Assembly: GCA_947630175.1 (NCBI GenBank)
Contig: CANRGJ010000009.1
Coordinates: forward strand, 37,434-101,433
DNA: 64,000 bases
Origin: an uncultured Ruminiclostridium sp.
GTDB lineage: Bacteria; Bacillota; Clostridia; Oscillospirales; Ruminococcaceae
Direction: 5' to 3'
Shown: piece by piece, positions 12,194 through 36,444 of the stretch
Layout of the letters: each line of letters begins with the position of its first letter
Position numbering within the stretch: position 1 is the stretch's first letter
The notes under the pieces: generated by a model
Database searches by the model: none
What the model saw: only the letters and a program-made list of their open reading frames with translations
Told to the model about the DNA's origin: nothing
Translations under genes and position numbers: made by a program

Positions 12194-13573
12194 CTATGCT
12201 TTATTTTCATAAATATCAGTAGTCGTACAACACAGCTTTTTTATTCCCGCCATTCTGACGTAATAGCTTATGACCAGCACTATATCTGCTCCCGCCCAGG
12301 CAAGGACCTCCGCCCAGAAAAGTCCCTCCGTGCCTATCAGCCAGGGGAGGAAAAAGATGGTGGACATACGCATAACAAGCTCCGCCGCGCCTGAGACCAT
12401 AGGCATTATCGTATCGCCGAGCCCTTGCAGGGAGGAACGGTAAATATGCAGAATGTAAAGCACAGGCAGGAACGCCGACATAATGCAGAGATAGTGATAT
12501 GCAATATCCACCGTTGCCGCGGCGTCCGCAGGCTCGCCTGAAATAAATGCGCCGACTATGTACTTGCCGAAAAGAAACATTATCACGCTTATGACTGCGG
12601 CTGTCGCAACACCCATCAAGGCTCCCGTGTGAACGCCTTTGTTGACACGTTTCAGCTTATTTGCGCCGTAATTCTGTCCCACATAGGTAGTGAGCGCAAA
12701 GCCGTAGGAGATAGCGGCTATCTCAAGGATACCGTACAGTTTGTTCGTCGCTGTAAAGCCCGCGATATACAAAACGCCGTAGCCGTTGATCACAAACTGG
12801 ACTACCAGTCCGCCTACCGAAATTATCAGGTTCTGGAACGCAAACGGCATAGCCAGCTTTAACAGCTTTTTTGAAAGTCCCTTTTCGGAAGTACGTTCAT
12901 CTTTCGGCACATGCACTATATCCAGCTTTCTCAAGGATAAATAGCATATCAGCGCAGACACTGCCTGACCGATAAGCGTTGCCGCCGCCGCGCCTGCTAC
13001 TCCCCAGCGAAAAACTATCACGAAAAGCAGATCCAGCACGATATTGCACAGCGAAGCCAAGATCATAGCGCGCAGAGGCGTTTTGCTGTCGCCCACAGCC
13101 CGCAGTACCGACGCCAGAAAATTATACGCCATAACGATAGGCACGCCCGCGAAAATAACGCTTAAATAGGTCACGGTTATGGGGAATATCTCCGAGGGAG
13201 TATTCAGCAGGCGCAAAATAGGGCGTAATGCCGCAAACGCAAAGCAAACTATCCCTATCGTGCAGAAAACGGATAGCTTGAGGGAGGTGACGTAGGTTTT
13301 TCTGAAGCTGTTTTCATCGCCTGCCCCGAAATTCTGCGCAAGACGAATGGAAAAGCCCTGGGCAAAGCCCTGAACCAAACTTAAAACAAGCCAGTTGAGC
13401 CACTCTCCGTTGCCTATCGCCGCCAGCGCGTTAAGACCCAGCACCTTGCCGACTATCATTGAATCCACCATGGTATAAAGCTGTTGGAACACGTTCCCTA
13501 CCATAAGCGGCAGGGCAAAGAAAAAAAGTATGCGCAGGGGCGGACCTGCTGTCATATTTTTTGTTGACGTCAT
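12194..13573 (-). CDS. MATE family multidrug/cation antiporter (second copy)
   Basis: This 459-residue MATE exporter has about twelve predicted helices. Typical runs are ALPLMVGNVFQQLYTMVDSM near the N terminus and LPVLYILHIYRSSLQGLGDT near residue 370. It is only distantly similar to the MATE protein at 8784, so it is not a recent duplicate. It stands alone between a terminator downstream and a 350-bp non-coding gap upstream. Substrate unknown. Confidence 0.9.
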   Translation of the reverse strand: MTSTKNMTAGPPLRILFFFALPLMVGNVFQQLYTMVDSMIVGKVLGLNALAAIGNGEWLNWLVLSLVQGFAQGFSIRLAQNFGAGDENSFRKTYVTSLKLSVFCTIGIVCFAFAALRPILRLLNTPSEIFPITVTYLSVIFAGVPIVMAYNFLASVLRAVGDSKTPLRAMILASLCNIVLDLLFVIVFRWGVAGAAAATLIGQAVSALICYLSLRKLDIVHVPKDERTSEKGLSKKLLKLAMPFAFQNLIISVGGLVVQFVINGYGVLYIAGFTATNKLYGILEIAAISYGFALTTYVGQNYGANKLKRVNKGVHTGALMGVATAAVISVIMFLFGKYIVGAFISGEPADAAATVDIAYHYLCIMSAFLPVLYILHIYRSSLQGLGDTIMPMVSGAAELVMRMSTIFFLPWLIGTEGLFWAEVLAWAGADIVLVISYYVRMAGIKKLCCTTTDIYENKA

Positions 13574-13925: not shown

Positions 13926-16106
13926 TCATATGATCTCCGCTTTCAAAGCATTTTCAAGCCACTGTCTGCTTCTTTCTATCTCGGGCTTCATTCTGGCGTT
14001 TACCTGCTCCCAGTCGATGGGCTGGTTGTAGGTCTTTTTTTCAAAGGCTTCTTCAACCGTTGGAACAATTCTGTCCATAAGACCGACAACACTGAGAATA
14101 CTTTGTACTCTTTCAAGTCCGTTTGTTTCATTCATCATACCTTTTACAAAGATGAACGGAATATTGTATCTGACAGCAAAGCAAGTAGCGTGAAATGAGT
14201 CTGTGATAATAAAACTGCTGTTGGTAAGATATTTCAGCCAGTTTTCAACGGTCAGGTTTTTTTCGTATGGATAAGGCCAATTTGATTGATAAAATCCTTC
14301 CTTTGCCAGAGAATTTTCAGCACAGGTAATTGTGCCGATATGACCCATATTAAATTCTCCGCATATCTTCTCGATTCCGTATTTTAAGGGGCTGGGATGA
14401 ATAATGTATGAGCAAACATATTTTTCTCCCACAGAGCATTTCGCAGAGTCAATCAGTTTTTGAAAATACTTTTTGTCGCACAGGAAAACAGGGTCAACCA
14501 CCCACTCCGCTTTAACACCCATTTGTCTGCACAACTCAACACCTGATTTTTCCCGCACGGATACTGCGTTAAATCTTCTTAACAAATTGGTAAGTTCTTT
14601 ATTTTGTTCGGGAGTTCCTGTCAATTCAACAGAACCAAATGACGTTGAATATGCCACTTTTCTTCTGTAATCTCTAACATAATCAAAAGAATAGCTGTTA
14701 ATTGTTGAATTATCAAATATTTTATAGTTCCAAACCTGATCCGAGCCTAACACAAACGTTTTTACCCGAACATTCAACTCCGCTTGGTCATTGAAATTTT
14801 TGTGTATTCTGCAAACATCATAAAATGGGTAAGGATTCACGCCGAAATGTATGGGTCTTGGAATATCATATCCGGGAATATCTGCCCGTCTCTCTACCAT
14901 AATCACAGAATATCCCATATCCTTGATAGTGTTGTACAAAGCGTAATATGTCAGATCGCCGCCATAATTGGGTACAGTCCAGCAGCCGCTTACAGCTACG
15001 TCAAATTTCCAGTTAAGGGCGTAATCCACCGCTTTTTTAAAGTCCCAGCCATCCTTTATCAGACGGAAAAATCTTTGTCTGGCGAGGACAGGCTTGCGTT
15101 TTTCGTTCATTCTGTTAAACCGTCTGAGGAAGGACAGGGGCATTCTTTTTACAAATTCAAACGAGCCCTTTATCTCCTCAAAAATTTCCATTGATTTTTT
15201 GTTGTTTGTAAGTATGCAGCTTATGCCTTTTTCCAGATCTACCGTTTCGTCATATTTGTCAAAGCTCCAGAAATCGCCTATCGTAAAGTCGCCAACTCTC
15301 GGAGTGGGAGCAAATTGGCAGTTGTCGCAGGATTCTGATGTTATCATAAATTTTAAATATGCTTTAAGGTAAGGGTCACGCATTGAGTGAATAATATGTT
15401 CCTCTCCGTTTGTAAATTCAATCCTTATTCCGTTTATGTACCAGCTGTATTTTTTGGAGCGGAAAGAAATATTTTTTATCTCCCTTCCCTTTGCCACGCT
15501 GTCCACATACTGACGGAAAAGCTTTTCGGGAGGATAGCCGCCGCAAAGCAGGTCGACTGTTATCAGCTTTTTAAAATCCTTGGGAAGATATGCTTTAAGC
15601 GCCGCCACCTGACAGGGGACTCCTGAAAAGAGGACGTACGCTCCTTCATTCAGCTTTTCATACACCTGCTTGTAGATATTTCCGGGCTTGCTGTAAACGT
15701 ATTTTGAGCCCCTCAGCTTATACATATCCGCTTTGTCGGAAATCATTATCTGGGATACTCCCCTGAAATCCTCGTCGTAAGCGGCTCCGCACACATATCC
15801 GCCTTTATCGAAAACATAGTTTGCAAGGGCGGTGAACGCTCCGCCCGATGAGCTTACCTCTAATACGTCAGGCGGCATTTTTACAGCGTAGCAGGGCGGC
15901 TCTGCCTCGTTGGAAACAGCGTGATTAAGCTGGGGGCATTTCTTTTCGCATTTTTCGCAGTGAATACATTTTCCGCTGTCAATTTTCGGTCTTATAAATC
16001 CGTCCTCGTTAGGGAGCATTTCGATTGCTCCCACGGGGCAGATATTCTTACATAATGAACAGCCTGTACAGGTCCTTCCTATGGCTGATATTTTATCTAA
16101 AAGCAT
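13926..16106 (-). CDS. F420-dehydrogenase-like Fe-S protein fused to polysaccharide pyruvyl transferase
   Basis: This 726-residue fusion has three parts. Residues ~10-60 carry two 4Fe-4S motifs (CTGCSLCKNICP and CIHCEKCEKKCP). Residues ~75-345 match the F420 hydrogenase/dehydrogenase beta-subunit family (SSSGGAFTALANY, FSGVPCQVAALKAYL, CDNCQFAP). Residues ~365-690 match polysaccharide pyruvyl transferases, with FVLGSDQVWN and TDSFHATCFA. The two families are often neighbours in surface polysaccharide loci; here they form one chain. The first half may reduce a sugar or flavin and the second may ketalise it, but both activities are inferred. It ends the polysaccharide operon and is a paralogue of 18621-20798. 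Confidence 0.88.
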   Translation of the reverse strand: MLLDKISAIGRTCTGCSLCKNICPVGAIEMLPNEDGFIRPKIDSGKCIHCEKCEKKCPQLNHAVSNEAEPPCYAVKMPPDVLEVSSSGGAFTALANYVFDKGGYVCGAAYDEDFRGVSQIMISDKADMYKLRGSKYVYSKPGNIYKQVYEKLNEGAYVLFSGVPCQVAALKAYLPKDFKKLITVDLLCGGYPPEKLFRQYVDSVAKGREIKNISFRSKKYSWYINGIRIEFTNGEEHIIHSMRDPYLKAYLKFMITSESCDNCQFAPTPRVGDFTIGDFWSFDKYDETVDLEKGISCILTNNKKSMEIFEEIKGSFEFVKRMPLSFLRRFNRMNEKRKPVLARQRFFRLIKDGWDFKKAVDYALNWKFDVAVSGCWTVPNYGGDLTYYALYNTIKDMGYSVIMVERRADIPGYDIPRPIHFGVNPYPFYDVCRIHKNFNDQAELNVRVKTFVLGSDQVWNYKIFDNSTINSYSFDYVRDYRRKVAYSTSFGSVELTGTPEQNKELTNLLRRFNAVSVREKSGVELCRQMGVKAEWVVDPVFLCDKKYFQKLIDSAKCSVGEKYVCSYIIHPSPLKYGIEKICGEFNMGHIGTITCAENSLAKEGFYQSNWPYPYEKNLTVENWLKYLTNSSFIITDSFHATCFAVRYNIPFIFVKGMMNETNGLERVQSILSVVGLMDRIVPTVEEAFEKKTYNQPIDWEQVNARMKPEIERSRQWLENALKAEII

Positions 16107-16117
16107 TTTGGTCCTCC

Positions 16118-16495
16118 TTATATCGTATCGTCCGTTTCAAAAACGGTATCGGTGAATTCATCTCTACGGGTATTGACGGCGATAGAGGTTATCATTCCTG
16201 AGGGCTTTCTGTCGTTTATCAGAATACGCTCCCCGTAAGGAAGATCGTAAATTATTGTATCGAAACGGATACCGTTTTCGGCAAGAAAGCTCTCGGTCAT
16301 CTCCTTATATTCTCTTTTTCTTGACGTGATAAGAATTATCTTATCCTCCGGGGACAGCTTTTTGAAAAATTCCCTTGCACCTTCAAGAAGCGTATCTTTG
16401 CCGTCTGTCTTGTATCCGTTATGCTTGACGATCGTCCCGTCAATATCCATTATCCACGTTTTTCCCAAAGAGGAAACTTTGATCACATCAGCCAT
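16118..16495 (-). CDS. HAD-superfamily phosphatase, small
   Basis: This 125-residue HAD-fold protein carries motif I in WIMDIDGTIVKHNG (residues ~14-27), motif II in ILITSRK (Ser/Thr ~58) and an acidic motif IV-like INDRKP near residue 95. It lacks a cap domain, as in sugar-phosphate phosphatases of the GmhB/KdsC type. It overlaps the SIS isomerase gene upstream by 8 nt. That pairing suggests it dephosphorylates the sugar phosphate made by the isomerase. Confidence 0.82.
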   Translation of the reverse strand: MADVIKVSSLGKTWIMDIDGTIVKHNGYKTDGKDTLLEGAREFFKKLSPEDKIILITSRKREYKEMTESFLAENGIRFDTIIYDLPYGERILINDRKPSGMITSIAVNTRRDEFTDTVFETDDTI

Positions 16496-17069
16496 TTAAT
16501 ATCTCTCCGATATGTCCGCCGGGGTGATTCATTTTAAACTGGTCAAGAGTGATGCCCATCTTCTTGCTTATCTGCATCGCCAGCATCTGCAAAACGATGA
16601 GATTGAGGGTGGTGGAATTGTTGGGAACGATGTTCCACATATCCCCCTCATGCTCAAGGTGAATAACAATGCATTTGGATATTTTCCTTGTCAACGTGCT
16701 TTCATTTTCAAATGTCAGCAGCCACTGGGTGCAGTTTCTTTTGTCAAGAAGAGAGTTAAGATACACCGATTCCACCGTTTCGCCACTCTTTGTGAGCAGA
16801 ATGACAAGGTCGCCGTCCTGTACCATTCCGATGTCCCCGTGTACGGCGGAATTGGTGTTCATAAAGCAGGCGTTAAGTCCCAGCGAATTCATTGTACCTA
16901 CAAACTTGTCGCATACAGGCACGTTTTTGCCAAGCCCCGAAAGAATAATCTTGTGTCCCGAATTCAGGGTTTCGATGCTCTCGTCAACAAGCTGTGAAAA
17001 AGCATTCTGGTCAATGGATTTCAACGAGTCAGTCAGGATTTTTAACAGTTCTTCAAAATATGTATTCAT
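16488..17069 (-). CDS. SIS-domain sugar phosphate isomerase (KdsD/GutQ-like)
   Basis: This 193-residue single-SIS protein has the phosphosugar-binding run VILLTKSGETVE (~88-99). The C-terminal HPGGHIGE resembles the HPGG signature of arabinose-5-phosphate isomerases (KdsD/GutQ), but the CBS domains of those proteins are missing. It probably interconverts an aldose and ketose phosphate for a polysaccharide building block. It sits between the nucleotidyltransferase-kinase gene and the HAD phosphatase. Together they look like an activation pathway, with the substrate undetermined. Confidence 0.82.
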   Translation of the reverse strand: MNTYFEELLKILTDSLKSIDQNAFSQLVDESIETLNSGHKIILSGLGKNVPVCDKFVGTMNSLGLNACFMNTNSAVHGDIGMVQDGDLVILLTKSGETVESVYLNSLLDKRNCTQWLLTFENESTLTRKISKCIVIHLEHEGDMWNIVPNNSTTLNLIVLQMLAMQISKKMGITLDQFKMNHPGGHIGEILNG

Positions 17070-17113: not shown

Positions 17114-18619
17114 TTAAAGTATCTGGGACAGATACAAAAGTCCGTTGTAGAACGCTCCGCATATAGAATCGTAATCCTCCCAGGCGTATGTGGTGAGGGA
17201 AAGCCAGATGATGGCGTGTATCAGACGTATCTGTTCGGGCGTTACCTCGTCGCCTATAAGACGGAAAAATACATCTTCCAGCTCCTCCCAGCCTGACGAA
17301 CGGACGAACAGCTCCACAGAATCCTCGTGAATATGCAGATCAAACCGCTTTAAATTAAACTGGTCGTAATTTCCCACAAGGGAATAGTACAGCTTTGCCC
17401 AGTCATACGCCACATCTCCGTAAAACTCGGTAAGTCCGAAATAACCTCGTGGGTCAATGAGGACAGGCTCCTTGTCGTTTCTCAGCAGAATATTTGAAAA
17501 AGTGCAGTCGCCATGGAGAAATACGAACCTGTCAGGCAGGTAGCGTTCCATAGCTTTGGTTATCTCATCTATGTGAAAGAAAAAATTGGGACAGCGTTTA
17601 CCGTTTATGACGATAGTTTCATCATTGGCAAAGGGGACAAGCTGTTTTACTTTCTCAAGTCGGGAGAGCGTTTTATAGATATATGCCTCGTTATAGCTTT
17701 GCTTATCAACGGGAACGCTGCCGATAAGATGGACCGATTTCAGGCAGTTTACAATATCAGTAAGGATATTCACCCTGTTTTCATAGCTGATATTTTCATA
17801 CTCATAAATATTGCTCCCTCGGATCTTTTCCATTGTGAGAGGCTCGTATGAGTATATTTTGGGTAAATTCAGAAACTGCTTGTCCATTACCTTGCGGTAC
17901 CATGCGATCTCCCTTTTAGCAAGATCCTCGCCCTGCTTGGTTATAGGCCTTTTGATAATGGAATCCTCCTGTTCCTCAATGGAGTTAAAGGGACGGCATT
18001 TTGCGGTGGGTATTTTCATATACTCGGAGATAAGCCCGAATTCCTTTACAGAATCGAGGGTGACAGTCTGAAACTCTATGTCTGTATCTTTCAGCCACCT
18101 GACAAACTCTCCCGATTCGGGCACGCCCTGCAAAGGTGATTTATCAGAAAAAATAAACATACCCGCTACGCCGTATTCGACAGAAGAGTTCTCAACAAAC
18201 TGATTATCCTCATATCTCCATCGGCAGGGAAAGCTCCCCGAAAGGCAGACATAGTTCCCGTTTGAAAGCCCGTCGGTGTTGAAGGTATCGGGCAGAACAA
18301 GATCTGACCATATCAGCATAAAGGACGCACCGTCGGGAATATTATCCACCGCTTCCTTTAACCCGCCGCAGGTACCTTTGCGTCCATTGGCGTTTATCAG
18401 TGTGTAATCGACGTTTGCAAATGCGGCAAGATACCGCTTTAACACGTCAAACTTATAATCTCCTATGATTACAAATTTTTTGCGGGGATATTTTTCAAAC
18501 AAATGAAAAATCATAGGGCGATTATTTACGGGAACAAGGGCTTTCGGCTTATTTTCAGTGAGATGCTCCATTCGTGTGCCTTTTCCGCCCGCCTGAACGA
18601 TTATGTAATCAAATTCCAT
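17114..18619 (-). CDS. Nucleotidyltransferase fused to aminoglycoside/choline-kinase-like phosphotransferase
   Basis: This 501-residue bifunctional protein starts with a sugar-nucleotidyltransferase domain (~1-235). It has the signature AGGKGTRMEHLTENKPKAL and a WSDLVL metal site. The C-terminal domain (~245-500) is an APH/choline-kinase-like kinase with FLHGDCTFSNILL (Brenner-type motif) and LIDPRGYFG (metal-binding Asp). It may phosphorylate a small alcohol or sugar and then activate it as an NDP derivative. The gene follows 18621-20798 after 1 nt, so the operon is tightly coupled. Confidence 0.85.
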   Translation of the reverse strand: MEFDYIIVQAGGKGTRMEHLTENKPKALVPVNNRPMIFHLFEKYPRKKFVIIGDYKFDVLKRYLAAFANVDYTLINANGRKGTCGGLKEAVDNIPDGASFMLIWSDLVLPDTFNTDGLSNGNYVCLSGSFPCRWRYEDNQFVENSSVEYGVAGMFIFSDKSPLQGVPESGEFVRWLKDTDIEFQTVTLDSVKEFGLISEYMKIPTAKCRPFNSIEEQEDSIIKRPITKQGEDLAKREIAWYRKVMDKQFLNLPKIYSYEPLTMEKIRGSNIYEYENISYENRVNILTDIVNCLKSVHLIGSVPVDKQSYNEAYIYKTLSRLEKVKQLVPFANDETIVINGKRCPNFFFHIDEITKAMERYLPDRFVFLHGDCTFSNILLRNDKEPVLIDPRGYFGLTEFYGDVAYDWAKLYYSLVGNYDQFNLKRFDLHIHEDSVELFVRSSGWEELEDVFFRLIGDEVTPEQIRLIHAIIWLSLTTYAWEDYDSICGAFYNGLLYLSQIL

Positions 18620-18620
18620 T

Positions 18621-20798
18621 TTATCCCTCCGATTTTAATTTCTCTATTTCTTCTTTTAAAGCATTTTTCAGCCAGTTTTTTGAAAAATCCTCCAATGCTT
18701 TCAGCTTTTCATAAACAGGACCGTAATCAATATCTGAGAATTTTTCGATGTTTATTTCAGAGCTGCTGTTCATCAGAACAGACGGGTCGGCAATGATCCT
18801 GTCTTCGAGTCCCAGTTCTCTCAGCAGCGAATACATTCTGCATGAGCCGTCGATATCAGGGTCTATTATACAAAGAAAATTCTTTTTAAAGATAATTGAA
18901 AAGCATATAGCGTGAAAGGAATCCGTAAAAACGAAATGCGCATTTTTTATGTAACAAAGCCAGTCCTCAATAAACACATTGATCACGGGAACGCTCCACT
19001 TACGGTTTTGCTGAGGATCGCCGAGAGCTTCGCTGACGCAGACCAGCTCGTTCTTTTTCTTTTTGGCATAATCAATTATTATTTTTTCTGTAATATGATT
19101 TGACCACCGCATATAAGCAAACACATAAGGCGAACAATGAAGAATGTTTGATTTGTCGGTCAGCTCATCAAATACGTTCGCTTCTGCAAGGAAAACAGGA
19201 TCCAACACCATAGCTGCTTCAAGACCGAATTCCTTTTTTAAAATATTCTTTCCCGTAGCTTCTCTTACAGAGATAAATTGAAATGTTCCAAGACGTTTTT
19301 TGAACAGAGTGTGGTGCTCCGCTGTTCCTGTATAATTATCAATGCCAAAGGACGTTGCATACGAAATTTTCTTTTTGTTGGGATTTACAAATCCTAAAGT
19401 GAAAGTATCAAATGCATGGTCAAACAGCTTCTGATTCCATACCTGATCTGAGCCTACAATAAAAGCGTCACAAATTCGATTCAGCTCTTGCTGTTCTTCA
19501 ATTGAACCGTACAAACGGGATAATGCATTGGAAGGATAGGGATTTTCTCTGAAAAGAATAGGAGAGGTCAGCGGAGGGAACGGATATGTATTGGGCTTTT
19601 CCACCATTAAAGGCTCTAAGCCCATTTCCCTGATAACACAGTATAGGGAATAATGCGTAAGCTGCGCTCCAAAATTGCAGGTACTCCAGTTTGTCACCAG
19701 TCCCACATCAAATTTTGAATTTTCAATGTATTCTCTGATTTTTGAAAGCGTAATATTCCTGCTTATACAATCAAAAAATCTTGTCCGATTTTCATTCATC
19801 ATATAATCTTCAAAAAATCGGTTGTTTTCAAGGGCAAAGCGAATGGGTACTGGTGATATCAGGTCAAATTCCGCTTTTACCGAATTAAAAAGCTTATTTC
19901 CTTTTTCAGAATTTAAAAGTATCAAGCTTATGCCGTCAGAAGAATTAAAAACATTTATGTATTTTTCAATCCCGTAAAAAATGCCCAGCGTTAAATCCGA
20001 ATTGTGAGTAACAGGCGCATATTGGCAGTGATAGCACGACTTGCGCAGTGAAATGCAGGCATTGTGAAAATAAGAAAAGTCGTAGTAGGGTACAGACTTT
20101 TTATCCTTGTCGATAATTTCAATCAAATCGGGACGAAAGCCCCATTTCTTGCTGCTGAACTTCAGATTATCGATCTTGCTGCCTGCAATCTTTTCCTTTT
20201 TCAGCTTTTTGATAACCGCAGGAGATGAAACACCGTGACATACAAAATCAACAGTTATGAGCAGATCTGTTTCCGTGCCGTCAAGATAAGCGTATAATGC
20301 ATTTACATGGCAGGGTGTGCCGCAGAACAGCACTGTAATTTTTTCGTTCAGCAGCTTTTTTATCCTGCAGAATACCGAATTCAGTTCTGCCTCAATATAC
20401 TTGGCGCCCAAAATCCTGTCGATGTCTTCAGGCTTATCTATCAGAACATATTCTGCTTTATTATTTTTAAATTCTACTCCGCATACAACACCGTTTTCTT
20501 TTAAAATGTGCTTTGCAAAAATATAGAATGCTCCTCCTGCCGTGCATTTATCGGAGATCGATTTTGATGTCCTTCCTGCAAAGCATTTGGGCGTTTTTTC
20601 GTTGTGTTTTTCAAAATTCAGCTGAGGACAAACACAAACACATTTTTTACATTCAGTACACTTCTTGGGATCAACTTTGGCGGTTAAAAAGCCTTCGCTG
20701 TCGTATTCCATTGAAATGGCGGATGATTGGCATACTTCACTGCATATCCCGCAGCCCATACAATTTTCATTTTTTTCTTTTAACACATTTACAATCAT
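18621..20798 (-). CDS. F420-dehydrogenase-like Fe-S protein fused to polysaccharide pyruvyl transferase (paralogue)
   Basis: This 725-residue protein has the same architecture as 13926-16106. It shows two 4Fe-4S motifs (CMGCGICSEVCQ, where the usual proline is Gln, and CTECKKCVCVCP), a beta-subunit domain with TAGGAFYIFAKH and LFCGTPCHVNALYAYL, and a pyruvyl-transferase domain with FIVGSDQVWN and FTDSFHAICFS. Sequence divergence from the paralogue is high, so the duplication is old or the two arrived separately. It is 1 nt from each neighbouring gene. Different glycan residues may be the targets. Confidence 0.87.
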   Translation of the reverse strand: MIVNVLKEKNENCMGCGICSEVCQSSAISMEYDSEGFLTAKVDPKKCTECKKCVCVCPQLNFEKHNEKTPKCFAGRTSKSISDKCTAGGAFYIFAKHILKENGVVCGVEFKNNKAEYVLIDKPEDIDRILGAKYIEAELNSVFCRIKKLLNEKITVLFCGTPCHVNALYAYLDGTETDLLITVDFVCHGVSSPAVIKKLKKEKIAGSKIDNLKFSSKKWGFRPDLIEIIDKDKKSVPYYDFSYFHNACISLRKSCYHCQYAPVTHNSDLTLGIFYGIEKYINVFNSSDGISLILLNSEKGNKLFNSVKAEFDLISPVPIRFALENNRFFEDYMMNENRTRFFDCISRNITLSKIREYIENSKFDVGLVTNWSTCNFGAQLTHYSLYCVIREMGLEPLMVEKPNTYPFPPLTSPILFRENPYPSNALSRLYGSIEEQQELNRICDAFIVGSDQVWNQKLFDHAFDTFTLGFVNPNKKKISYATSFGIDNYTGTAEHHTLFKKRLGTFQFISVREATGKNILKKEFGLEAAMVLDPVFLAEANVFDELTDKSNILHCSPYVFAYMRWSNHITEKIIIDYAKKKKNELVCVSEALGDPQQNRKWSVPVINVFIEDWLCYIKNAHFVFTDSFHAICFSIIFKKNFLCIIDPDIDGSCRMYSLLRELGLEDRIIADPSVLMNSSSEINIEKFSDIDYGPVYEKLKALEDFSKNWLKNALKEEIEKLKSEG

Positions 20799-20799
20799 A

Positions 20800-21789
20800 T
20801 TATTTATCCTCTACGCTATCAATTATTTTGTCTATCAAATCGTAAAACTCAACGCCTTCATATTCCAATTCGACCGCGTCGTCACAAAAGCCGATTTTAT
20901 TCAAACTGAAATAATCAAAGTTGGTCCCGGCTCCCCAGAAGAGATAAGGCTGATAAATAATGATCTTTTTGCAGGCGGCACTGCTTATAATGTCGCAGAA
21001 GCCGCTTCTGATACCAATAAAATACCCGCATTTTTCCAAAATCGGCACAGAAATATCATATGGGAATGACAGAGGGATCGTGCCGTTGATGGGAAATTCC
21101 GAAGGCGACCCTACGTTCGTGCAGACTGTATATCCTCGTTCCTTCAGCTTTTCCGCAATATTGCACCACACCCACCATGGCAGTGAGGGGAGCGTGTTGA
21201 CAAAAGGAGAAAGCACCACGGTTTTTCCCGGCACCAATCGTTGTTCCTCAAAAACGGAGTAGAGCTTATTGCTGTTGTAGTCAAATGAAGGCAGCTGCTT
21301 GTCCTTCTCAGGGTCAAGGTCAAATACCGATTTAATATACAGGTCTACGAAATTTAGGCCGTTAAAATTTCGCATATTTTCAAGGATACCGCAATATGTC
21401 TGAGGGGGATGGTGATGCATTATCAATATCTCATCATTTTTTCCGAGAAAAATACTCAGTCTTACAAGCATATCCGCTTCGTTCTGTGATATCTTTTCAA
21501 TATTTTTAAATCCGAAAAGATTAGCTACCTTAAAATTAGAGCCGCCTATGACCACGACTACAAAATCATCTATGCCGTTGTTTCTTGCAAAAGCATTGAT
21601 ATACATACCTGCGAGATAAACATCGCCTGTTCCCGCATAGGGACATAGAAAGATCTTACATCCCTTGTATTTCCCCGCTATTCTGTTGTAAATATTAAGC
21701 CCGCGCTTTATCCTGAAATTAAACGCCGCCGATAAAGAAACCGTCTCGTTTCTTCGTGCTATTGATTTGAAATGCTCAAAAAACGACAT
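20800..21789 (-). CDS. GT9/heptosyltransferase-like glycosyltransferase
   Basis: This 329-residue protein appears to be a GT-B fold transferase related to ADP-heptose/LPS heptosyltransferases. The N-terminal half has a GTGDVYLAGMYINAF run. The C-terminal half has PGKTVVLSPFVNTLPSLPWWVW, then FIGIRSGFCDIISSA, which fits the donor-site G(I/V)(R/D)SG pattern of that group. It is the third gene of the polysaccharide operon. Donor and acceptor are unknown, and the family call is by motif pattern only. Confidence 0.7.
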   Translation of the reverse strand: MSFFEHFKSIARRNETVSLSAAFNFRIKRGLNIYNRIAGKYKGCKIFLCPYAGTGDVYLAGMYINAFARNNGIDDFVVVVIGGSNFKVANLFGFKNIEKISQNEADMLVRLSIFLGKNDEILIMHHHPPQTYCGILENMRNFNGLNFVDLYIKSVFDLDPEKDKQLPSFDYNSNKLYSVFEEQRLVPGKTVVLSPFVNTLPSLPWWVWCNIAEKLKERGYTVCTNVGSPSEFPINGTIPLSFPYDISVPILEKCGYFIGIRSGFCDIISSAACKKIIIYQPYLFWGAGTNFDYFSLNKIGFCDDAVELEYEGVEFYDLIDKIIDSVEDK

Positions 21790-21809
21790 ATAATTTTTCT
21801 CCCTGTGTT

Positions 21810-22295
21810 CTATACTATCTTTTTATTTTGAGGAAGCCGGCGAAAAGGAATTATTCCGTAAATTCCGATAGCCACTAACTGCTCTACGGTCGTCCCTTTA
21901 TATCCCACAAGACTTGAACCGTTTCTGCTGAACGGCCTATCAAGGGAAATCACAACAAATCTGTTATCAAAAATATGAAGCTCATACAATGCGATCAGGC
22001 GTTCTGCCTGCTCTGCCGAAATTTCAATTATTGACCGTACGTTATCCGAATAAAGCTGAATGTCCCGTTTCACGTTGTTTTCGATGGTTATGATAATAGC
22101 TTTATCAGCGTTTACCCTTTGCAGATATGTATCAAGATATCGCATTCCCTGCAGATTGCACTCCCAGTCTAAATTTGGAAACAGCAAGATCCTGTCATTC
22201 GGCTTCGGTTTGGTCACGTGGAGCAAAGAGTTCCATTCCTTCTGGGCTGTCTTTGTCAACTTATACTTTTCTTTTATTGCTTCATTGATATTCAT
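21810..22295 (-). CDS. Hypothetical protein of the polysaccharide operon
   Basis: This 161-residue soluble protein has alternating beta/alpha character (RILLFPNLDWECN, KAIIITIENNV, RFVVISLDRPF) and no signal peptide or membrane segment. I do not recognise a family. Its position between a GT8 and a GT9-like gene, with short spacers, suggests an accessory role in glycan assembly. It may be a partial Rossmann-like domain. Confidence 0.6.
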   Translation of the reverse strand: MNINEAIKEKYKLTKTAQKEWNSLLHVTKPKPNDRILLFPNLDWECNLQGMRYLDTYLQRVNADKAIIITIENNVKRDIQLYSDNVRSIIEISAEQAERLIALYELHIFDNRFVVISLDRPFSRNGSSLVGYKGTTVEQLVAIGIYGIIPFRRLPQNKKIV

Positions 22296-22306
22296 ATAAC
22301 TACCAC

Positions 22307-23299
22307 CTACAATTTCAGATTTATTTTAAGGGAAGATACCTTATAGCCAAACCATTTTTTAGCAAATTTCATAATTATACGGAATCCCGTCTGTCCGCTG
22401 CTGAATTTTTCGTCCATTAATTCTGTTACGTTAGCATTTGATAAATATGTATTAAACAAGGAATAAACTACATCTTCCCAGAACGGAGTGCAGGAAGCAT
22501 ATTGAAAAAAATAGCAGGACAGCTTCGCTCCGTAAAACGAGTTCCACGGCTTATTATTTGACGTGTAGTGAATGATATAGCAGTTATTCAACGCTTTCTG
22601 ATATTCAATAAGATCGTTGCCCTTTATATATTTTAGCTTGTCCAGATAATGACCCCATTGAAGGTTCCACCTCAGATCCAGGCTTTTCACCGCATCTTTG
22701 CAGCAAAGATTAAGCGCATCCTGGTCAGGGCATCTGAAAGATCTGTTATTTTTAATTAAGGATAATATTTTTTGGGACATTTCTCCTCTGAATAAATTTA
22801 AATTTATCAGTAAAACCCCCGAATTAAAATATTTCTGCGGGTCTATGCCGATTTTCTCAAGTTCCTTGCAGCGAAACACATTGGGGATATCGTACACTGC
22901 CCCTAATACATTTTGTCCTAAGTCAGTGTCATACAACTCTTTAATATCCTTCTTTACAATGGTATCACAATCTAAATAAAGCGCTTTTTTCTCAGCGGGA
23001 AATAAATCACCGATAAATATTCTCAGGTACATTTCCAACTTGAAATAATCTACTTCATATAATTCTTCTATTTTATCGCTGTTTACTTCTATCATCTGAA
23101 TTTTTATATTATACTGTTCTGACAGTTCCATAAACTTCAAATAATTCTGTTTTAAAAGATTCAAATATAAAACATAAAATCTGCATAATTCCTTGTGTTT
23201 GGTATTAAACCATACCGAATAAATCGAAGCTGCAGCAGCATGGGCGTATAAATCGTTCACAGCATACACAACATTTATCTTATCGTCCATATCGATCAC
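22307..23299 (-). CDS. Glycosyltransferase family 8 protein
   Basis: This 330-residue retaining glycosyltransferase is of the LgtC/general stress protein A type. The GT-A fold is shown by NVVYAVNDLYAHAAAASIYS at the N terminus, the metal-binding DxD in YLDCDTI (~111-117), and FNSGVLLINL with DQDALN further on. A C-terminal basic helix could contact the membrane. It is the first gene of the operon after the recombinase, which ends 38 nt upstream. It likely transfers glucose or galactose in surface polysaccharide synthesis, though the sugar is inferred. Confidence 0.9.
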   Translation of the reverse strand: MIDMDDKINVVYAVNDLYAHAAAASIYSVWFNTKHKELCRFYVLYLNLLKQNYLKFMELSEQYNIKIQMIEVNSDKIEELYEVDYFKLEMYLRIFIGDLFPAEKKALYLDCDTIVKKDIKELYDTDLGQNVLGAVYDIPNVFRCKELEKIGIDPQKYFNSGVLLINLNLFRGEMSQKILSLIKNNRSFRCPDQDALNLCCKDAVKSLDLRWNLQWGHYLDKLKYIKGNDLIEYQKALNNCYIIHYTSNNKPWNSFYGAKLSCYFFQYASCTPFWEDVVYSLFNTYLSNANVTELMDEKFSSGQTGFRIIMKFAKKWFGYKVSSLKINLKL

Positions 23300-23337: not shown

Positions 23338-24270
23338 TTACCCTACTTCCTCCGCTATCAGATTTATTGCCTGTATTTTGCTGGTTATCGTGGGTTTCTC
23401 GCAATATGCCGCCGCACTTTGCACCGACGTATTTCCCAGAATGTCCGCCAGAACGGTCACGTCTGCGCCGTGAGAGATGCACCGTTTGATGAACAATTTT
23501 CTCAATTCGCTGAAGCTGATGTCGGGGAGATACTCCTTTTTCAGGAATGAGCGAAGGCGGTACTGCATTGTGCGGGGTTCGATGGGCGAAGTTGTTCCCG
23601 AAAGGAGATAGCGGTTTTCGGGCGCTTTGTGCTTTTTCAAAATGTCGCAGAGAAACTGCGGCAGCGGTATCTCACGGGCTTTTTTGCCCAGGTCGGTTAT
23701 CATCAGCACACTTCCTTCTTCGGTGGATATGCGCTGAATCGTGCGGACTACCGTGATTTTTCCCGCTTTCAGGTCAACATCCTCCCACTTTAGGGCGCAC
23801 AATTCGCCGATTCTTAATCCTGTGTAAAGGGTCATCAGTATGCCGCATTTCGTCAGGTCGGTGTTGGTGGTGAGGACCTTGTTCAGCCGTTCGCAAAGTT
23901 CATCGGTGTAGATCGGCTGTTCGGGAGGATTTTCGCTCTCCCTGCCTGTCTTTATCGTTTCCATTCCCACCGTGGGGTCGGGGTAACCGTAGGTTCTGGT
24001 CACGTTTTTCAGGATGGATTTAAGCAGGGTCGTCACGTCGTATATGTACTTTCCGTTGAAGCCCTCCGCATACAAATGCTCTACAAAGCTCTGTATGGAG
24101 TCCCGGGTAATATCTTTCAGCCTTGCCTTTTCAAAATATGGTATAATGTTTTTGTCAAGCCGTAACGTGTACTGAGCGTAGGAGCTGGGCTTGACCTTGC
24201 TTCTGACCGTAGAAAGCCACTCCTTTGTCAGGTCGGAAAACAAAATGTTTCCTAAATTTTTCCTTGTCAT
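23338..24270 (-). CDS. Tyrosine recombinase-like protein with a degenerate active site
   Basis: This 310-residue protein has the two-domain layout of integrase-type tyrosine recombinases: a SAM-like core-binding domain (~10-110) and a catalytic domain (~135-300). Arg I is kept in TGLRIGELCALKW, box-II Arg in FSELRKLF, and the candidate Tyr in SAAAYCEKP. Both usual histidines are gone: the HxLRH pattern reads SELRK and LGH reads LGN. Strand exchange may therefore be weak or absent, and it could act as a DNA-binding cofactor. It lies between the inverted-repeat cassette and the polysaccharide operon, on the same strand, with CAGGAG 7 nt before its ATG. Confidence 0.8.
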   Translation of the reverse strand: MTRKNLGNILFSDLTKEWLSTVRSKVKPSSYAQYTLRLDKNIIPYFEKARLKDITRDSIQSFVEHLYAEGFNGKYIYDVTTLLKSILKNVTRTYGYPDPTVGMETIKTGRESENPPEQPIYTDELCERLNKVLTTNTDLTKCGILMTLYTGLRIGELCALKWEDVDLKAGKITVVRTIQRISTEEGSVLMITDLGKKAREIPLPQFLCDILKKHKAPENRYLLSGTTSPIEPRTMQYRLRSFLKKEYLPDISFSELRKLFIKRCISHGADVTVLADILGNTSVQSAAAYCEKPTITSKIQAINLIAEEVG

Positions 24271-24302
24271 TTGGTTCTCCTGTTATGGATATACTAATTC
24301 TG

Positions 24303-24324
24303 TAATTTATTCTTTTGCGAAAAA
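24303..24324. repeat. Left 22-bp inverted repeat of the cassette
   Basis: The repeat contains TTATTCTTTTGCGAAAA. Its exact reverse complement lies at 25514-25535. It sits 33 bp upstream of the ATG at 24270. Immediately outside both copies an AATTAGT motif recurs. Confidence 0.88.
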
Positions 24325-24361
24325 CCGATGAGAACGGGCAAATTCAGGATTTTGACGGCAG

Positions 24362-25414
24362 CTATGCCGCAAAGGTCAGACGTTTAATAAACTTCTGCTT
24401 GCGCTCCATTGAGGAATGGACGTATCTGTTAAGCGTGATCTCTACGCCAGAATGACCGAGAATTTCTGACAGAGATTTCACATCAAAGCCCATTTCAACG
24501 CAGTTGGTGGCGAACATATGGCGCAGGGCGTGAAAGTGTATTGACGGCAGGTTTGCTTTTTTCAGGACTTTTTGGAAGCGGTATTGCATTACGCGGGGTT
24601 CAATGGGTTTTGGGGCAGAGGAAAGAATATAGGAACTTTTGTCAGAAATAAACTTTTTAATTAAAGGTATTATACAGTCGGGAATTGGTATTTCTCTGAC
24701 GGAGGAATTGCTTTTTGGTTCGGTGATTATCAGTTTTGTGCCGCCTGTTACCCGTATTCTTTGAATGGTTTTGGTGACGGAAATCGTGCGCTTAGAAAGG
24801 TCTACGTCTGACCATTTTAAAGCGCATAACTCGCCTATGCGCAAGCCTGTGAAAAGGGACAGAGCTATGCCTAATGAAGTTAAATTCTGGTTTGCGCTGA
24901 GGTATTTTTGTAAACGGGTTTGTTGGTATTTTGAGAGCAGATTTACTTCTACCCGTTTTCTTTTCGGCAAAACAACTTCTGCAATTCTGTTGCGGATATT
25001 GTAGCGGTTGACGGCGAATTTCATCACAGACTTTAAGAGTATAACAATATCAGCCACATAGTTTGATGACAGGCCGCTTTGCAGCTTGTCTGCTATGAAT
25101 TTGTGCAGAAGAGAAGCGTCAATCTTATCTGCGCAAACGTTTCCAAATGCAGGCAGGATATGACTTTCCGCTTTGCCTATATAGTTTGAAACTGTTGACT
25201 CTTTAAGCCTAAATTTCGATGATTCCAGCCATTCCCAAAAAAGGGTTTTTACCGTCAGACCTGTCTCGGAATAGCTTTGATTTTCCTTGAATTTTTTGAT
25301 TTTTTGCCTGACTTCATCATCGGTCTTTCCATAGAAATATCTGAGTCTATGACAGTTTTTGTCCGTCAGCCGTCCTTCGTACCGTCCGTCCCTTCGCAGA
25401 TAAATATTTTCCAT
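24362..25414 (-). CDS. Tyrosine recombinase / site-specific integrase
   Basis: This protein of about 350 residues has an N-terminal arm-binding-like domain (YLRRDGRYEGRLTDKN), a core-binding domain (~55-155) and a catalytic domain (~165-345). The active site looks complete: Arg in TGLRIGELCALKW, HALRHMFATNC, ILGHSGVEITLNRY. I prefer ATG 25414, preceded by AAAGGA at 7 nt, over ATG 25441, which adds nine residues. It is related to the degenerate recombinase downstream, sharing the run TGLRIGELCALKW. Being inside its own inverted repeat, it is a strong candidate to invert the segment. Confidence 0.9.
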   Translation of the reverse strand: MENIYLRRDGRYEGRLTDKNCHRLRYFYGKTDDEVRQKIKKFKENQSYSETGLTVKTLFWEWLESSKFRLKESTVSNYIGKAESHILPAFGNVCADKIDASLLHKFIADKLQSGLSSNYVADIVILLKSVMKFAVNRYNIRNRIAEVVLPKRKRVEVNLLSKYQQTRLQKYLSANQNLTSLGIALSLFTGLRIGELCALKWSDVDLSKRTISVTKTIQRIRVTGGTKLIITEPKSNSSVREIPIPDCIIPLIKKFISDKSSYILSSAPKPIEPRVMQYRFQKVLKKANLPSIHFHALRHMFATNCVEMGFDVKSLSEILGHSGVEITLNRYVHSSMERKQKFIKRLTFAA

Positions 25415-25513
25415 TATTTTTTCGTCCTTTCTTGTTGACATTTCCCCGTTTTTGTGATATGATATTTTCGGTTCTGTTAACAGTTATCCAATTATATTTT
25501 AGTTTAATTTTCT

Positions 25514-25535
25514 TTTTTCGCAAAAGAATAAATTA
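25514..25535. repeat. Right 22-bp inverted repeat of the cassette
   Basis: This is the exact reverse complement of 24303-24324 (22 of 22 bases). It lies about 100 bp upstream of the recombinase start. A minus-strand promoter-like pair (TTAACA, 16 bp, TATTCT) would overlap it from outside. Confidence 0.88.
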
Positions 25536-25576
25536 GTGAAAATTAGTGTTAAGAATTTATCTTGTTTAAAACGAAA

Positions 25577-25604
25577 AAACGGGCAGATTTTCAATCTGTC
25601 CGTT
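25577..25604. terminator. Hairpin, probable terminator
   Basis: The stem AAACGGGCAGATT / AATCTGTCCGTTT (one G-T pair) is followed by a T-rich tract on the plus strand and preceded by A-rich DNA. It could stop transcripts from either side. Confidence 0.55.
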
Positions 25605-25620
25605 TATGTTTTTATTTGAT

Positions 25621-33066: not shown

Positions 33067-36000
33067 TTAAAAATCAAACAGTTTTTTCATTTCTGTTTCC
33101 ATAGTTCCGTTCTTTGCAAACTCTAAAGTATCACAAAGACGAATATTGTTTTTTTCAATATGTATCTTATCACTGAACCCAAGAATATATCGCAGACAAA
33201 TACGATATATAATTTCCGTCGGAGCGCAGCCGTATACTTGTTTTGCAAATATATGATCAAGCCTTTGAGCGTCATCAGGATAAAACTCTTTCATACGTTC
33301 ACTTTGATAAAGTCTTGTTACAATCTCCGTTATATACATTCCCGACTTCATATAAAGATCCGCAAATGTGGCATCAGGATTATCAAAGCAGCCTGGATTT
33401 TCCTGTTCCAGATTATCCACCATATCTTTTACTACTTTTTTAGGGGTAAATATCTGATTGGTGCGCTGCGGAGGAATAAAATCAAAAATATCTCCCTGGT
33501 GATCTGGCTCAAAATAATTAGCAAGCTCAGTACGTTTTCTCATAAATTCTTGTACAGCATCATTAAACACTACTTCATCAAACAAGTGTCCATCAAAGTG
33601 TTTCTTTTCACCGCTTTCTGACATATAATCTCCGCCGTCACGCAGCATGCAGAACTGCTCAAGCGTCACACCCTGACCATTCTGCGGATTGACAGTGACT
33701 TCCCAGAACACTTCTTTTGGCACCAAAGTATCAAAATTTGCAAGTGTGGTATTCTCATCGCCATATGCCATAAGAAATGCAGGGATAGTTCTGGAAAAAC
33801 CACGCAAGTGATCACGGACGCTACCTTCGATCGAATCTTTCTGAGCTTTCAGCTTTTCGGTTTCTACCGTTTCAACAATAGTTTCCGCAGCTTTTTTCAC
33901 TGTTTCATCGCTTTTAAGTTTATTCTTGATGTTGTCAAGCATTTCACGATAGCCTTGTTTACGTCTTTCACTGTAATCTTCATCGATTTTTGTAATATCT
34001 TCCATTGTCGCACCAGACTGCTGCGCCTCTTTTATTTTGTCATCACATTCTTTGACAAGCTGTTGATCACGGATAGTGTAATCACCGTACTCACGGTTGA
34101 CAACATTCTCAGTAGTTTCTTGGATTTTGCGTTCCAGATGATTTTGCGTAGATTTTCTCAAATCACTGCCATATTGCTCTATGGCAGAATCCATAAGAGT
34201 TTGTGCTATCGGTTGCGAAAAAGTTTTCAGCAAATTTTTCAGATCGTCCTTTTTGGAATCAGGAGTTATTTCCGCTTTATTTTTAATATCCTCTACCGCA
34301 GCCGTCAGTTTTTCATCTACATCTGCATAGATCTTATCGCCGAAAAGATCGCTCGCTGTTCCTATCACCTGTTCTTTCGATATCTCAACATCACCGCTGT
34401 TATTCAAAGCCAGCTTAGTTGCTGTGGTTTCATCAATAGGAGCAGGAGCAAGCGTTTTAGGTTCTTCAACTGCCTGCATATTGTTGATAATGTCGATTAT
34501 CTCCTTCGGCGCGCCAAAAATGCCGCTGATATTTGCAAAAAGGAAATTGGACATAAACCCGCGCTCCACAACCTCTCTTGCATGAATATGCCTCGGGATC
34601 GTCAACACCTTTTCTGCGTCAAGTTCAATCATTGAGCCTTTATCATCCTCACCGTATACGGGGAAGAAGTTAAGCAGTTCTCTTACGTTATTTTTGCGGC
34701 TGTCAAAGTCGCCCTTATCTCCTGAGGTTTTGGGAATAAGATCATTGGCAAACTGTTCAAAAATTGTAAGAGTACGGGCAGGGTCAAAATCAAATACATA
34801 GGCATTTTGCTTTCTGTAGGTATTGCCGTATGTGTCAGTGAACAGGCACGGATTTTGCGCACGAAAAGCCGCCTGCATATAAAGTGCAGGACTTGCCATA
34901 TTCGACAGCATAAGCACAGCCGTCCATTCGGGGATAGTAACGCCTGTTGTGAGCTGTCCTACCGACAGGGTTATCGTCTTGTCATAGCTTTCTATCGCTT
35001 TTGTTACCCTGTCAAAGGACTTCTCGTTCTCGATATCATCATCTAATTTCCCGTCGCCTGCTGCAAGGATTACCTCATAATCCTTGAATACAGGATGAAG
35101 TTTCAGTTTCTTTGCCAGAGCCTTTGCGCTTGCAACACGGTTAAGTATCCAGAACGTGTGCTTTAATTCGTCACGAAGTTCGGGAGTTGAAAACGGAAAT
35201 TTCTCCTGCCGTGTCAATGCGTCAAGGAACTTGTTTACATCGCTGTCATGGACAAAATTTCCCTGCTCGTTTGTCTTGAAAAATTCATTCAGATCAAACG
35301 CAAATTCCTCAATATCGTTGTCTGCAAGCTCTATGCCTTTCTTTACCTTGTCACGAACAATATCGGACATCTGATAGGTAAACAGCGAAAGGCGGGGCAG
35401 ATTTTCATAAGGATTTTCCAGCTCGTTCGCACTGTCCCAGTCGCGTTTCTTTTTCTGCTCATCTGCATAGGTCCAGTTGTAGATGGCGCTCTCGGGAAAT
35501 TTGTCGTTGGCAAGAGCCTTGAACGGCGTACCCGAAAGGTGCAGCGTCCACTTTCGGCGAATATGATTAAAGGCGGTATCTGTCTTATAGGTATCAACGC
35601 CCTCATGTGCCTCGTCAACTATAAGAATATCCCAGTTTATTCCTTTTTCGGCGCTGACCTCGGCAAGCTTATCATATTGTCCTCCGAAATAAACAGAACC
35701 TTTCAGATCCTGCAGGCTGACAAACTCAATACAGCCCTTTGTGTTTTCGTCTATTTTCTTTCTGTACTCTTCACGGCTGTAAACATACTTTTTATCTTTT
35801 ATGCCGTCAACATTGCTGACAAAAATGTAGCCCGACTGCGGACCGAAAAATGTTTCATAGTCGGAATACCACGAATTTGCTATGGCGGGACGGTTTGTCA
35901 CAATAAGAATATTCTGCGCGCGAAGGCTCATACACAGATCGTATGCGGCAAGCGTTTTTCCGAAACGTGGCTTTGCGTTCCAAAGAAACTCCGCATTTTC

Positions 36001-36444
36001 ACGACCGCCGAAATATTCTGCTGTTTTTTGCACCGCCTGCGCCTGTTCATCACGGAGCTTATACGGTATCACTGCGTCGGCATTTTCAGAAGACACTACG
36101 CCGTGATTTTGTGTAAAGTCCATATAATCTTCACGAGCGACGTTCGGCTCGATGTAAAACCATTCTGTGTCCTTTTCCCGTAAAACGCCCAGCTTTTTCA
36201 GGTATGCGTGAAAATCCTTATCGGTAAAAGTGCCGTAAGGCTCGGTCATAAACACCGCGCGCATTGCCCACCATGTTTTATGTGCAACGCCGACGGTGTG
36301 GGTCTGCTCGTTTATGCGGGTTTCAACGTCACGTTCGGTAAAACCGATTTTTGTCCAGCCGTCATGTGCAGGCACGCCAGGAGTTGTATAGGCATAGCAT
36401 TGAGGTGTGACCTTTTTGGTGGTTTTTATATTTATCGCTGCCAT
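33067..36444 (-). CDS. GIY-YIG nuclease - SF2 helicase - methylase-like restriction protein
   Basis: This 1125-residue protein starts with a T5orf172-like GIY-YIG domain (~15-100; YAYTTPGVPAHDGWTKIGFT and a terminal EWFY). An SF2 helicase core follows at ~130-560, with Walker A in AKPRFGKT, DEAHEG and LSGTPFKA. A charged coiled-coil-like region spans ~640-900. The C-terminal ~180 residues resemble an N6-adenine methylase start (IFTPKKVVKDMVDNL and ADLYMKSGMYITEIV). It shares its start base with the stop of the Eco57I-type methylase gene, so the pair is one operon. It is probably the cleavage and translocation subunit of a restriction system whose type is not certain. Confidence 0.82.
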   Translation of the reverse strand: MAAINIKTTKKVTPQCYAYTTPGVPAHDGWTKIGFTERDVETRINEQTHTVGVAHKTWWAMRAVFMTEPYGTFTDKDFHAYLKKLGVLREKDTEWFYIEPNVAREDYMDFTQNHGVVSSENADAVIPYKLRDEQAQAVQKTAEYFGGRENAEFLWNAKPRFGKTLAAYDLCMSLRAQNILIVTNRPAIANSWYSDYETFFGPQSGYIFVSNVDGIKDKKYVYSREEYRKKIDENTKGCIEFVSLQDLKGSVYFGGQYDKLAEVSAEKGINWDILIVDEAHEGVDTYKTDTAFNHIRRKWTLHLSGTPFKALANDKFPESAIYNWTYADEQKKKRDWDSANELENPYENLPRLSLFTYQMSDIVRDKVKKGIELADNDIEEFAFDLNEFFKTNEQGNFVHDSDVNKFLDALTRQEKFPFSTPELRDELKHTFWILNRVASAKALAKKLKLHPVFKDYEVILAAGDGKLDDDIENEKSFDRVTKAIESYDKTITLSVGQLTTGVTIPEWTAVLMLSNMASPALYMQAAFRAQNPCLFTDTYGNTYRKQNAYVFDFDPARTLTIFEQFANDLIPKTSGDKGDFDSRKNNVRELLNFFPVYGEDDKGSMIELDAEKVLTIPRHIHAREVVERGFMSNFLFANISGIFGAPKEIIDIINNMQAVEEPKTLAPAPIDETTATKLALNNSGDVEISKEQVIGTASDLFGDKIYADVDEKLTAAVEDIKNKAEITPDSKKDDLKNLLKTFSQPIAQTLMDSAIEQYGSDLRKSTQNHLERKIQETTENVVNREYGDYTIRDQQLVKECDDKIKEAQQSGATMEDITKIDEDYSERRKQGYREMLDNIKNKLKSDETVKKAAETIVETVETEKLKAQKDSIEGSVRDHLRGFSRTIPAFLMAYGDENTTLANFDTLVPKEVFWEVTVNPQNGQGVTLEQFCMLRDGGDYMSESGEKKHFDGHLFDEVVFNDAVQEFMRKRTELANYFEPDHQGDIFDFIPPQRTNQIFTPKKVVKDMVDNLEQENPGCFDNPDATFADLYMKSGMYITEIVTRLYQSERMKEFYPDDAQRLDHIFAKQVYGCAPTEIIYRICLRYILGFSDKIHIEKNNIRLCDTLEFAKNGTMETEMKKLFDF

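Follow-up and report, generated by a model that had tools for sequence, protein, structure and literature searches.

Bacteroides offers well-described cases of phase-variable surface glycans, and the Hin invertase is a serine recombinase. The portions of two sources available to us (PMC5903667 and PMC11892184) describe invertible promoters for RecV of C. difficile, Mpi of B. fragilis and the hCom2 invertons, and place tyrosine recombinases near clostridial invertons. The locus analysed here shares with these systems, as presented there, inverted repeats, switchable promoters and surface targets that include polysaccharide loci. RecV and Mpi are each described there as one enzyme serving several switches elsewhere in the genome, whereas here every segment encodes an enzyme of its own; the same portions mention no catalytically dead partner for the RecV, Mpi or hCom2 invertons, whereas such a protein adjoins the segment here. 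The Hin switch of Salmonella, in the part of PMC5903667 available, likewise has the invertase gene within the segment and a promoter reading out of it, a design for which flipping is predicted in our locus. Unlike Hin, our locus combines a tyrosine recombinase, a glycan operon as target, a dead homologue heading that operon, and a multicopy cassette with locus-specific spacers. A further parallel is MrpR (YopR) of phage SPbeta, described in the available part of PMC10516654 as a DNA-binding repressor that has a tyrosine-recombinase fold, key arginine and histidine residues replaced and the protein kept, as in our dead homologue; Phi3T SroF (PDB 9rd5) can be grouped with MrpR in this respect, going by the title of the structure. 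Finally, Tn1549/Tn916-type integrases (PDB 6emy-6en2) move conjugative transposons, whereas the loci here show a one-gene segment of 1.2 kb turned round in place.

What is new here is the dead partner together with the multi-locus spacer design; the self-encoded invertible promoter is known already. In the literature searched, in which subscription journals were largely uncovered, we found no description of a conserved dead tyrosine recombinase adjoining an invertible segment, and no live/dead recombinase pair of this kind. Throughout, the window is the whole stretch of DNA analysed (64,000 nucleotides), LR ("live") denotes the recombinase between the repeats, and DR ("dead") denotes the homologue that is the first gene of the operon. 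We consider it very probable, from the sequence comparisons below, that the locus is a self-encoded ON/OFF invertible promoter switch. In cells, LR would flip the 1.2-kb segment between two inverted crossover sites, which would aim an outward promoter at a surface-glycan operon in one orientation and at a terminator-like hairpin in the other.

As in described invertons, inverted repeats surround the segment. The preliminary description had reported perfect 22-bp repeats around an apparently complete tyrosine recombinase, and both observations were borne out. Positions 24303-24324 and 25514-25535 are exact reverse complements of 22 nt and are unique in the 64-kb window: with up to three mismatches allowed, the 20-nt repeat core occurred at only two places, both of them these repeats, against a mean of 0.04 matches in 100 shuffles, none of which held two. 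The motif TTTGCGAAA is single in the window (24314), as is its complement (25516). LR (24362..25441, minus strand) is a complete ORF of 359 aa running from 25441 to 24362, matches PF00589 and PF14659, and contains the catalytic set R-K-H-R-H-H-Y; a start at codon 10 (25414), preceded by AAAGGA, is equally plausible. Its Pfam matches fall solely in tyrosine-recombinase families, so LR does not have the chemistry of a serine invertase of the Hin/Mpi type, and its best sequence match in the PDB is to the Tn1549/Tn916-type integrases (6emy-6en2). Across the loci compared, the set R-K-H-R-H/W-Y was intact in 19/19 LR proteins, as expected of active tyrosine recombinases.

Each predicted crossover site covers most of one 22-nt repeat. 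The operon-side site (24296..24322, plus strand) has a layout common to 13 loci and comprises the outer arm AATTCTGTA (24296-24304), ATT, the spacer TATTCT (24308-24313) and the inner arm TTTGCGAAA (24314-24322). The terminator-side site (25516..25542, minus strand) has the same arm and spacer layout in inverted form, with the inner arm at 25516-25524, the spacer at 25525-25530 and the outer arm TTTTCACTA at 25534-25542. The AATTAGT motif previously noted outside both repeats does recur, but the two occurrences are not in register: the right one overlaps the outer arm of the crossover site, and the left one lies farther out. Located by a rule of arm plus ATT and aligned on the inner arm, 26 sites from 13 loci show the order outer arm, ATT, 6-nt spacer, TTTGCGAAA. 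Spacer identity averaged 5.8/6 within a locus vs 3.6/6 between loci (13 loci), and for the eight loci with distinct spacers the true pairing was the single best of 40,320 permutations. Tyrosine recombinases in general require spacer identity for strand exchange, and the match within loci is what such a requirement would lead one to expect. The spacer TATTCT is common to the window copy (contig C9) and the copy on C6 of the same genome, and a third copy, on C4, has TCATCA/TCATCT; within C4, and likewise within its relative L027, the two spacers are 1 base apart and the two inner arms up to 2.

The segment also carries a promoter candidate near the LR start that reads outward, TTGACA-17-TATGAT with TG before the second hexamer (25435..25463, plus strand; 11/12 match), pointing away from the operon in the present assembly. 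Promoter-like matches as such were not enriched in the region (6 found vs 5.0 in shuffles), and the argument is therefore one of match quality, position and conservation: at least 10/12 matches with 17-nt spacing were found in 15/15 segments of the lineage (the 13 loci with both LR and DR, plus two contigs ending inside LR), the shuffles used for this conservation preserving base composition only. At loci without DR, the outward promoter matched at least 11/12 positions in five of six, with 9 in the sixth (L056). The promoter proposed earlier, TTAACA-17-TAGTTT (25477-25505), exists as a text match; it is weak (8/12) and was displaced by the conserved one. Beyond the segment lies a terminator-like hairpin of 13 pairs followed by a T run (25577..25605, plus strand). 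An outer hairpin was found in 12/15 loci and is weak at L036; none was detected at L053 or L054 among the 15 loci scanned. Because the outward promoter faces this hairpin in the window, the window copy is probably OFF. By sequence alone, then, an internal promoter would read outward to the target in one of the two orientations. The 12 co-directional loci whose gap was readable gave no terminator-like hairpin between LR and DR, and LR transcription may therefore leak into the operon in the OFF state. A possible promoter of LR itself, TTGCGA-16-TAAAAT (25496..25523, minus strand), has its first hexamer within the inner arm (TTGCGA, or TTACGA in L027), followed by 16 or 17 nt and a second hexamer with 5/6 matches in 15/15 segments; the loci are related, and each instance is weak singly (shuffle p 0.02-0.12). 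If this promoter is real, a recombinase bound at the site would repress its own gene, and autoregulation of LR is predicted from this overlap. A search for RNA families in the window gave none at gathering score.

The left repeat lies 33 bp upstream of a minus-strand gene run, as had been reported, the distance being that to the ATG of the first gene. That run does carry glycan genes, but its first gene (24270-23338), lying outside the invertible segment, had been overlooked as a member of the tyrosine recombinase family. This gene is DR (23338..24270, minus strand; PF00589 and PF14659), with the residues RGSRKNC at the catalytic positions in place of the R-K-H-R-H/W-Y of active enzymes. In 13/13 DR proteins from paired loci both catalytic histidines are absent and a Cys occupies the Tyr column, and catalytic residues are also missing from the 43 best database matches, among the best 120 of 1506 proteins typed together with both queries. 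In a tree of 71 rows (19 LR, 13 DR, 21 listed dead-type and 18 listed intact proteins, the last two sets hand-picked), 34 dead rows formed one branch with support 100/100. DR is under purifying selection (dN/dS 0.075-0.138, 6 pairs). Its structural model retains the core-binding and catalytic fold, with the Tn1549/Tn916-type integrases (PDB 6emy-6en2) as best fold match; DR thus presents a recombinase fold with the catalytic residues lost, as MrpR does. In three loci of an Acetatifactor-labelled genome (L031, L032 and L034), DR has a long low-complexity Gln/Gly-rich insert between its two domains.

Downstream of DR, the likely operon encodes a glycosyltransferase of family 8 (22307..23299; PF01501, E 4e-45), two genes without Pfam match (21810-22295 and 20800-21789, together 20800..22295), an FrhB-like/polysaccharide pyruvyl transferase protein (18621..20798; PF04230, PF04432), a protein with nucleotidyltransferase and APH-like phosphotransferase domains (17114..18619; PF00483, PF01636), a SIS-domain protein (16488-17069), a small protein with a sub-threshold HAD match (16118-16495), a second FrhB-like/pyruvyl transferase protein (13926..16106; PF04230) and, at its end, a MATE-family transporter (12194..13573; TIGR00797), all on the minus strand. 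Counting this one, two MATE-family transporters (8784-10148 and 12194-13573) lie towards the end of the run of glycan genes. We scanned 1-10 genes 3' of DR at 12 of the 13 paired loci, all but L032, and found glycan-synthesis domains at 8/12. Alongside the GT8 and pyruvyl transferases of the window, the targets include UDP-galactopyranose mutase at C6 and C4, GT4 and GT2 at L027, a galactofuranosyltransferase N-domain at L028 and L031, NeuB at L035 and RgpF at L053. The one gene scanned at L029 encodes a dehydrogenase, and the one gene scanned at each of L030, L034 and L054 gave no domain match. On the other side of the switch, adjacent ResIII helicase-like and Eco57I-type methylase genes (33067-38465) are followed by a DUF3987 protein (39660-41174), and this region is possibly a restriction or defence island adjoining the switch locus.

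Further copies occur in the same genome and in its relatives. The repeat core is exact at two other places in the genome, C6:2042 and C6:3250, 1.2 kb apart. Relatives of LR in the same genome are 91% (C4), 88% (C6) and 53% (C5) identical, the others being more distant; DR lies beside LR at C4 and C6, and at C5 LR lies within a 31-nt repeat without DR. A distant recombinase match at window 43562-44560 (C9:80995-81993) is broken by two TAG codons and is likely a pseudogene. A contig scan yielded 12 loci, of which 10 are close relatives, from uncultured Ruminiclostridium and Acetatifactor records labelled Lapin, a label that we read as a rabbit source. In all, the comparison took in 19 loci where LR is full, DR being present at 13 and absent from 6, and two contigs ending inside LR. 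LR was found at 1e-100 in 7/60 relatives, own genome included, and DR at 1e-60 in 5/71 genomes of the genus, again counting its own. Among 391 class genomes sampled, DR at 1e-60 was detected in its own genome alone, in a scan that scored at most five candidates per genome and can therefore miss relatives. DR is rare, yet it is also present in a record labelled Acetatifactor. Three LR relatives without DR (L024 12349-15012, L055 8888-15775 and L056 8961-15956) lie within inverted repeats of 17-31 nt beside very large ORFs. The first genes after the segments at L055 and L056 gave no Pfam match; the large genes there, in the sister species, encode 2295 and 2331 aa that begin like a signal sequence and end in an LPSTG/LPSAG-like tail, which we take to be an LPxTG-like motif, and these two features make it likely that the proteins are wall-anchored.

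The orientation of the segment differs among these copies. LR and DR are co-directional at 12 of the 13 paired loci, the window (C9) and C4 included, and opposite at C6, where the same DR-side flank abuts the LR 5' end and not the 3' end. Against a sister-species contig (G005:C8), C6 89-2060 matches in reverse (95.6% over 1972 bases) and the segment part 2397-3268 matches forward (88%), both alignments ending inside the repeat; like flank is therefore joined to opposite segment ends in two species of one genus. Loci without DR behave similarly: at 67-72% identity, LR points the same way as their shared large downstream gene in L024 and L055 but is reversed in L056. Both orientations thus occur between paralogues and between species. 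A phase-variation switch upstream of a surface-glycan operon had been suggested, with relatives in the alternative orientation as the check; the C6 paralogue and the sister-species flank, with the breakpoint within the repeat, supply such relatives and support that suggestion. With its promoter directed away from the operon, the window orientation would be OFF, and that of C6 would be ON. A search of four other genomes by outer flank yielded no inverted junction for the window locus itself; in its sister, the DR-side contig begins inside DR, and the match of the outer flank starts only 253 bases outside.

Could the orientation differences instead reflect independent insertions of a small mobile element copied to several glycan loci? 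Several loci of one genome carry near-identical cassettes, 88-91% identical at the protein level, which would fit such an element, as would the grouping of LR by genome and of DR partly by locus type, as if cassettes had been exchanged or homogenised. Yet the cassette lies directly upstream of DR, in the same place, in 13/13 paired loci, the flank stays where it is and the reversal is confined to the segment between the sites, and spacers are alike within and unlike between loci, a pattern that insertion would not maintain. Incidentally, no empty site was noticed. We judge this explanation very improbable. LR genes cluster by genome, and the DR of C4 (L023) clusters with that of L027, from another species. 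It is as if the LR coding sequence were homogenised within a genome, with DR and spacer staying with the locus.

The assemblies of two sister genomes are broken at crossover sites, as would be predicted if both orientations were mixed. The C4-like switch of G005 is split between contig C23 (DR flank), which begins GATGAAATTCAAG, and contig C34 (hairpin flank), which begins GATGAAATATACG; both begin at the same spacer base, and the segment is missing between them. In the intact C4 copy, the base preceding GATGAAAT is T at one segment end and A at the other, and the two G005 contigs start just after this first base at which the C4 segment ends differ. A cut at that base on both flanks is expected if each flank had two predecessors in a de Bruijn assembly, and we infer that both orientations were present in the reads. 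In G029, contig C5, on the DR flank, and contig C18, on the hairpin flank, share their initial 76 nt, comprising the LR 3' end and the site, a pattern that an assembler would produce where a single segment end runs on into two flanks. The explanation could be either one locus in two states or two loci whose ends are identical, and several loci with identical ends are possible at G029 and G018. The G005 and G029 contig ends may point to reversible flipping within one population. Four genomes have a C6-type junction contig (G000:C6, G005:C59, G018:C35 and G029:C18), in which the LR 3' end is joined to the hairpin flank without a DR match. Many contigs of the sister genomes terminate within or close to LR, DR or the sites (C8, C12, C23, C24, C27, C34, C59 and C61 of G005; C4, C18 and C35 of G018; C5, C18 and C21 of G029), and several overhang the site by 58-59 nt (76-77 nt including the site), which resembles an assembler k-mer length.

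These junctions also speak to a decayed or locked switch, fixed at most loci including the window, with DR as the remnant of a duplicated recombinase. The single orientation at 12/13 loci is compatible with locking and may also mean that flipping is rare or biased, and there are signs of decay: a spacer base or inner arm has drifted in L023, L027, L034 and L054, and an LR relative in the same genome (C5:106095-107143) is split between two frames. Against this stand the intact LR at 19/19 loci, the low dN/dS of LR (0.042-0.127, 7 pairs) and of DR in the range given above, the perfect 22-nt repeat of the window and the alternative junctions in four genomes, and we regard a locked switch as improbable.

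The part played by DR is less certain than the switch itself. That the locus is a switch in which DR serves as some kind of accessory seems likely to us; that DR specifically regulates the LR switch has about an even chance. The regulatory role draws on the analogy with MrpR, a dead recombinase that acts as a DNA-binding repressor in phage SPbeta. We predict that DR recognises the crossover sites used by LR, or similar ones, and exerts feedback on the switch: it might block LR, bias it or act as its partner, or it might repress the LR promoter. Alternatively, DR could be a structural partner in an XerC/XerD-like mixed tetramer, with LR on the strong inner arms and DR on weaker outer arms; only the LR pair would cut, and the junction would be resolved by host processes. 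The arms lend this some appeal: where DR is present, the inner arm TTTGCGAAA hardly varies whereas the outer arms do, and the strong arm TTTCGCAAA is the outer one in loci without DR (L024, L055 and L057-L059) but the inner one in the 13 paired loci. The LR proteins from loci with DR moreover form one branch (13 rows, support 97/90), and the DR model retains both parts of the fold. Asymmetric arms, however, also suit a single enzyme with unequal sites, and we think the mixed tetramer unlikely. Our fullest account of a regulatory DR is put forward tentatively, at somewhat below even chances: live LR would flip its own gene and promoter, DR, as the operon's first product, would bind the sites and make flipping state-dependent, and locus-specific 6-nt spacers would allow several switches to work in parallel in each cell.

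The LR/DR locus offers a compact, self-contained counterpart, in Clostridia-type genomes and with several copies in each, to the phase-variable glycan loci of Bacteroides. If DR feeds back on LR, inversion would be self-regulated by a pseudo-enzyme produced from its own target operon. If live and dead recombinase act together as proposed, switches that share their arms would stand side by side in one cell and could give rise to combinations of surface glycans. With private spacers at many loci, the arm and spacer design would naturally supply orthogonal pairs of sites for a single recombinase family, and k-mer-length overhangs may help to spot mixed-orientation switches in metagenome assemblies.
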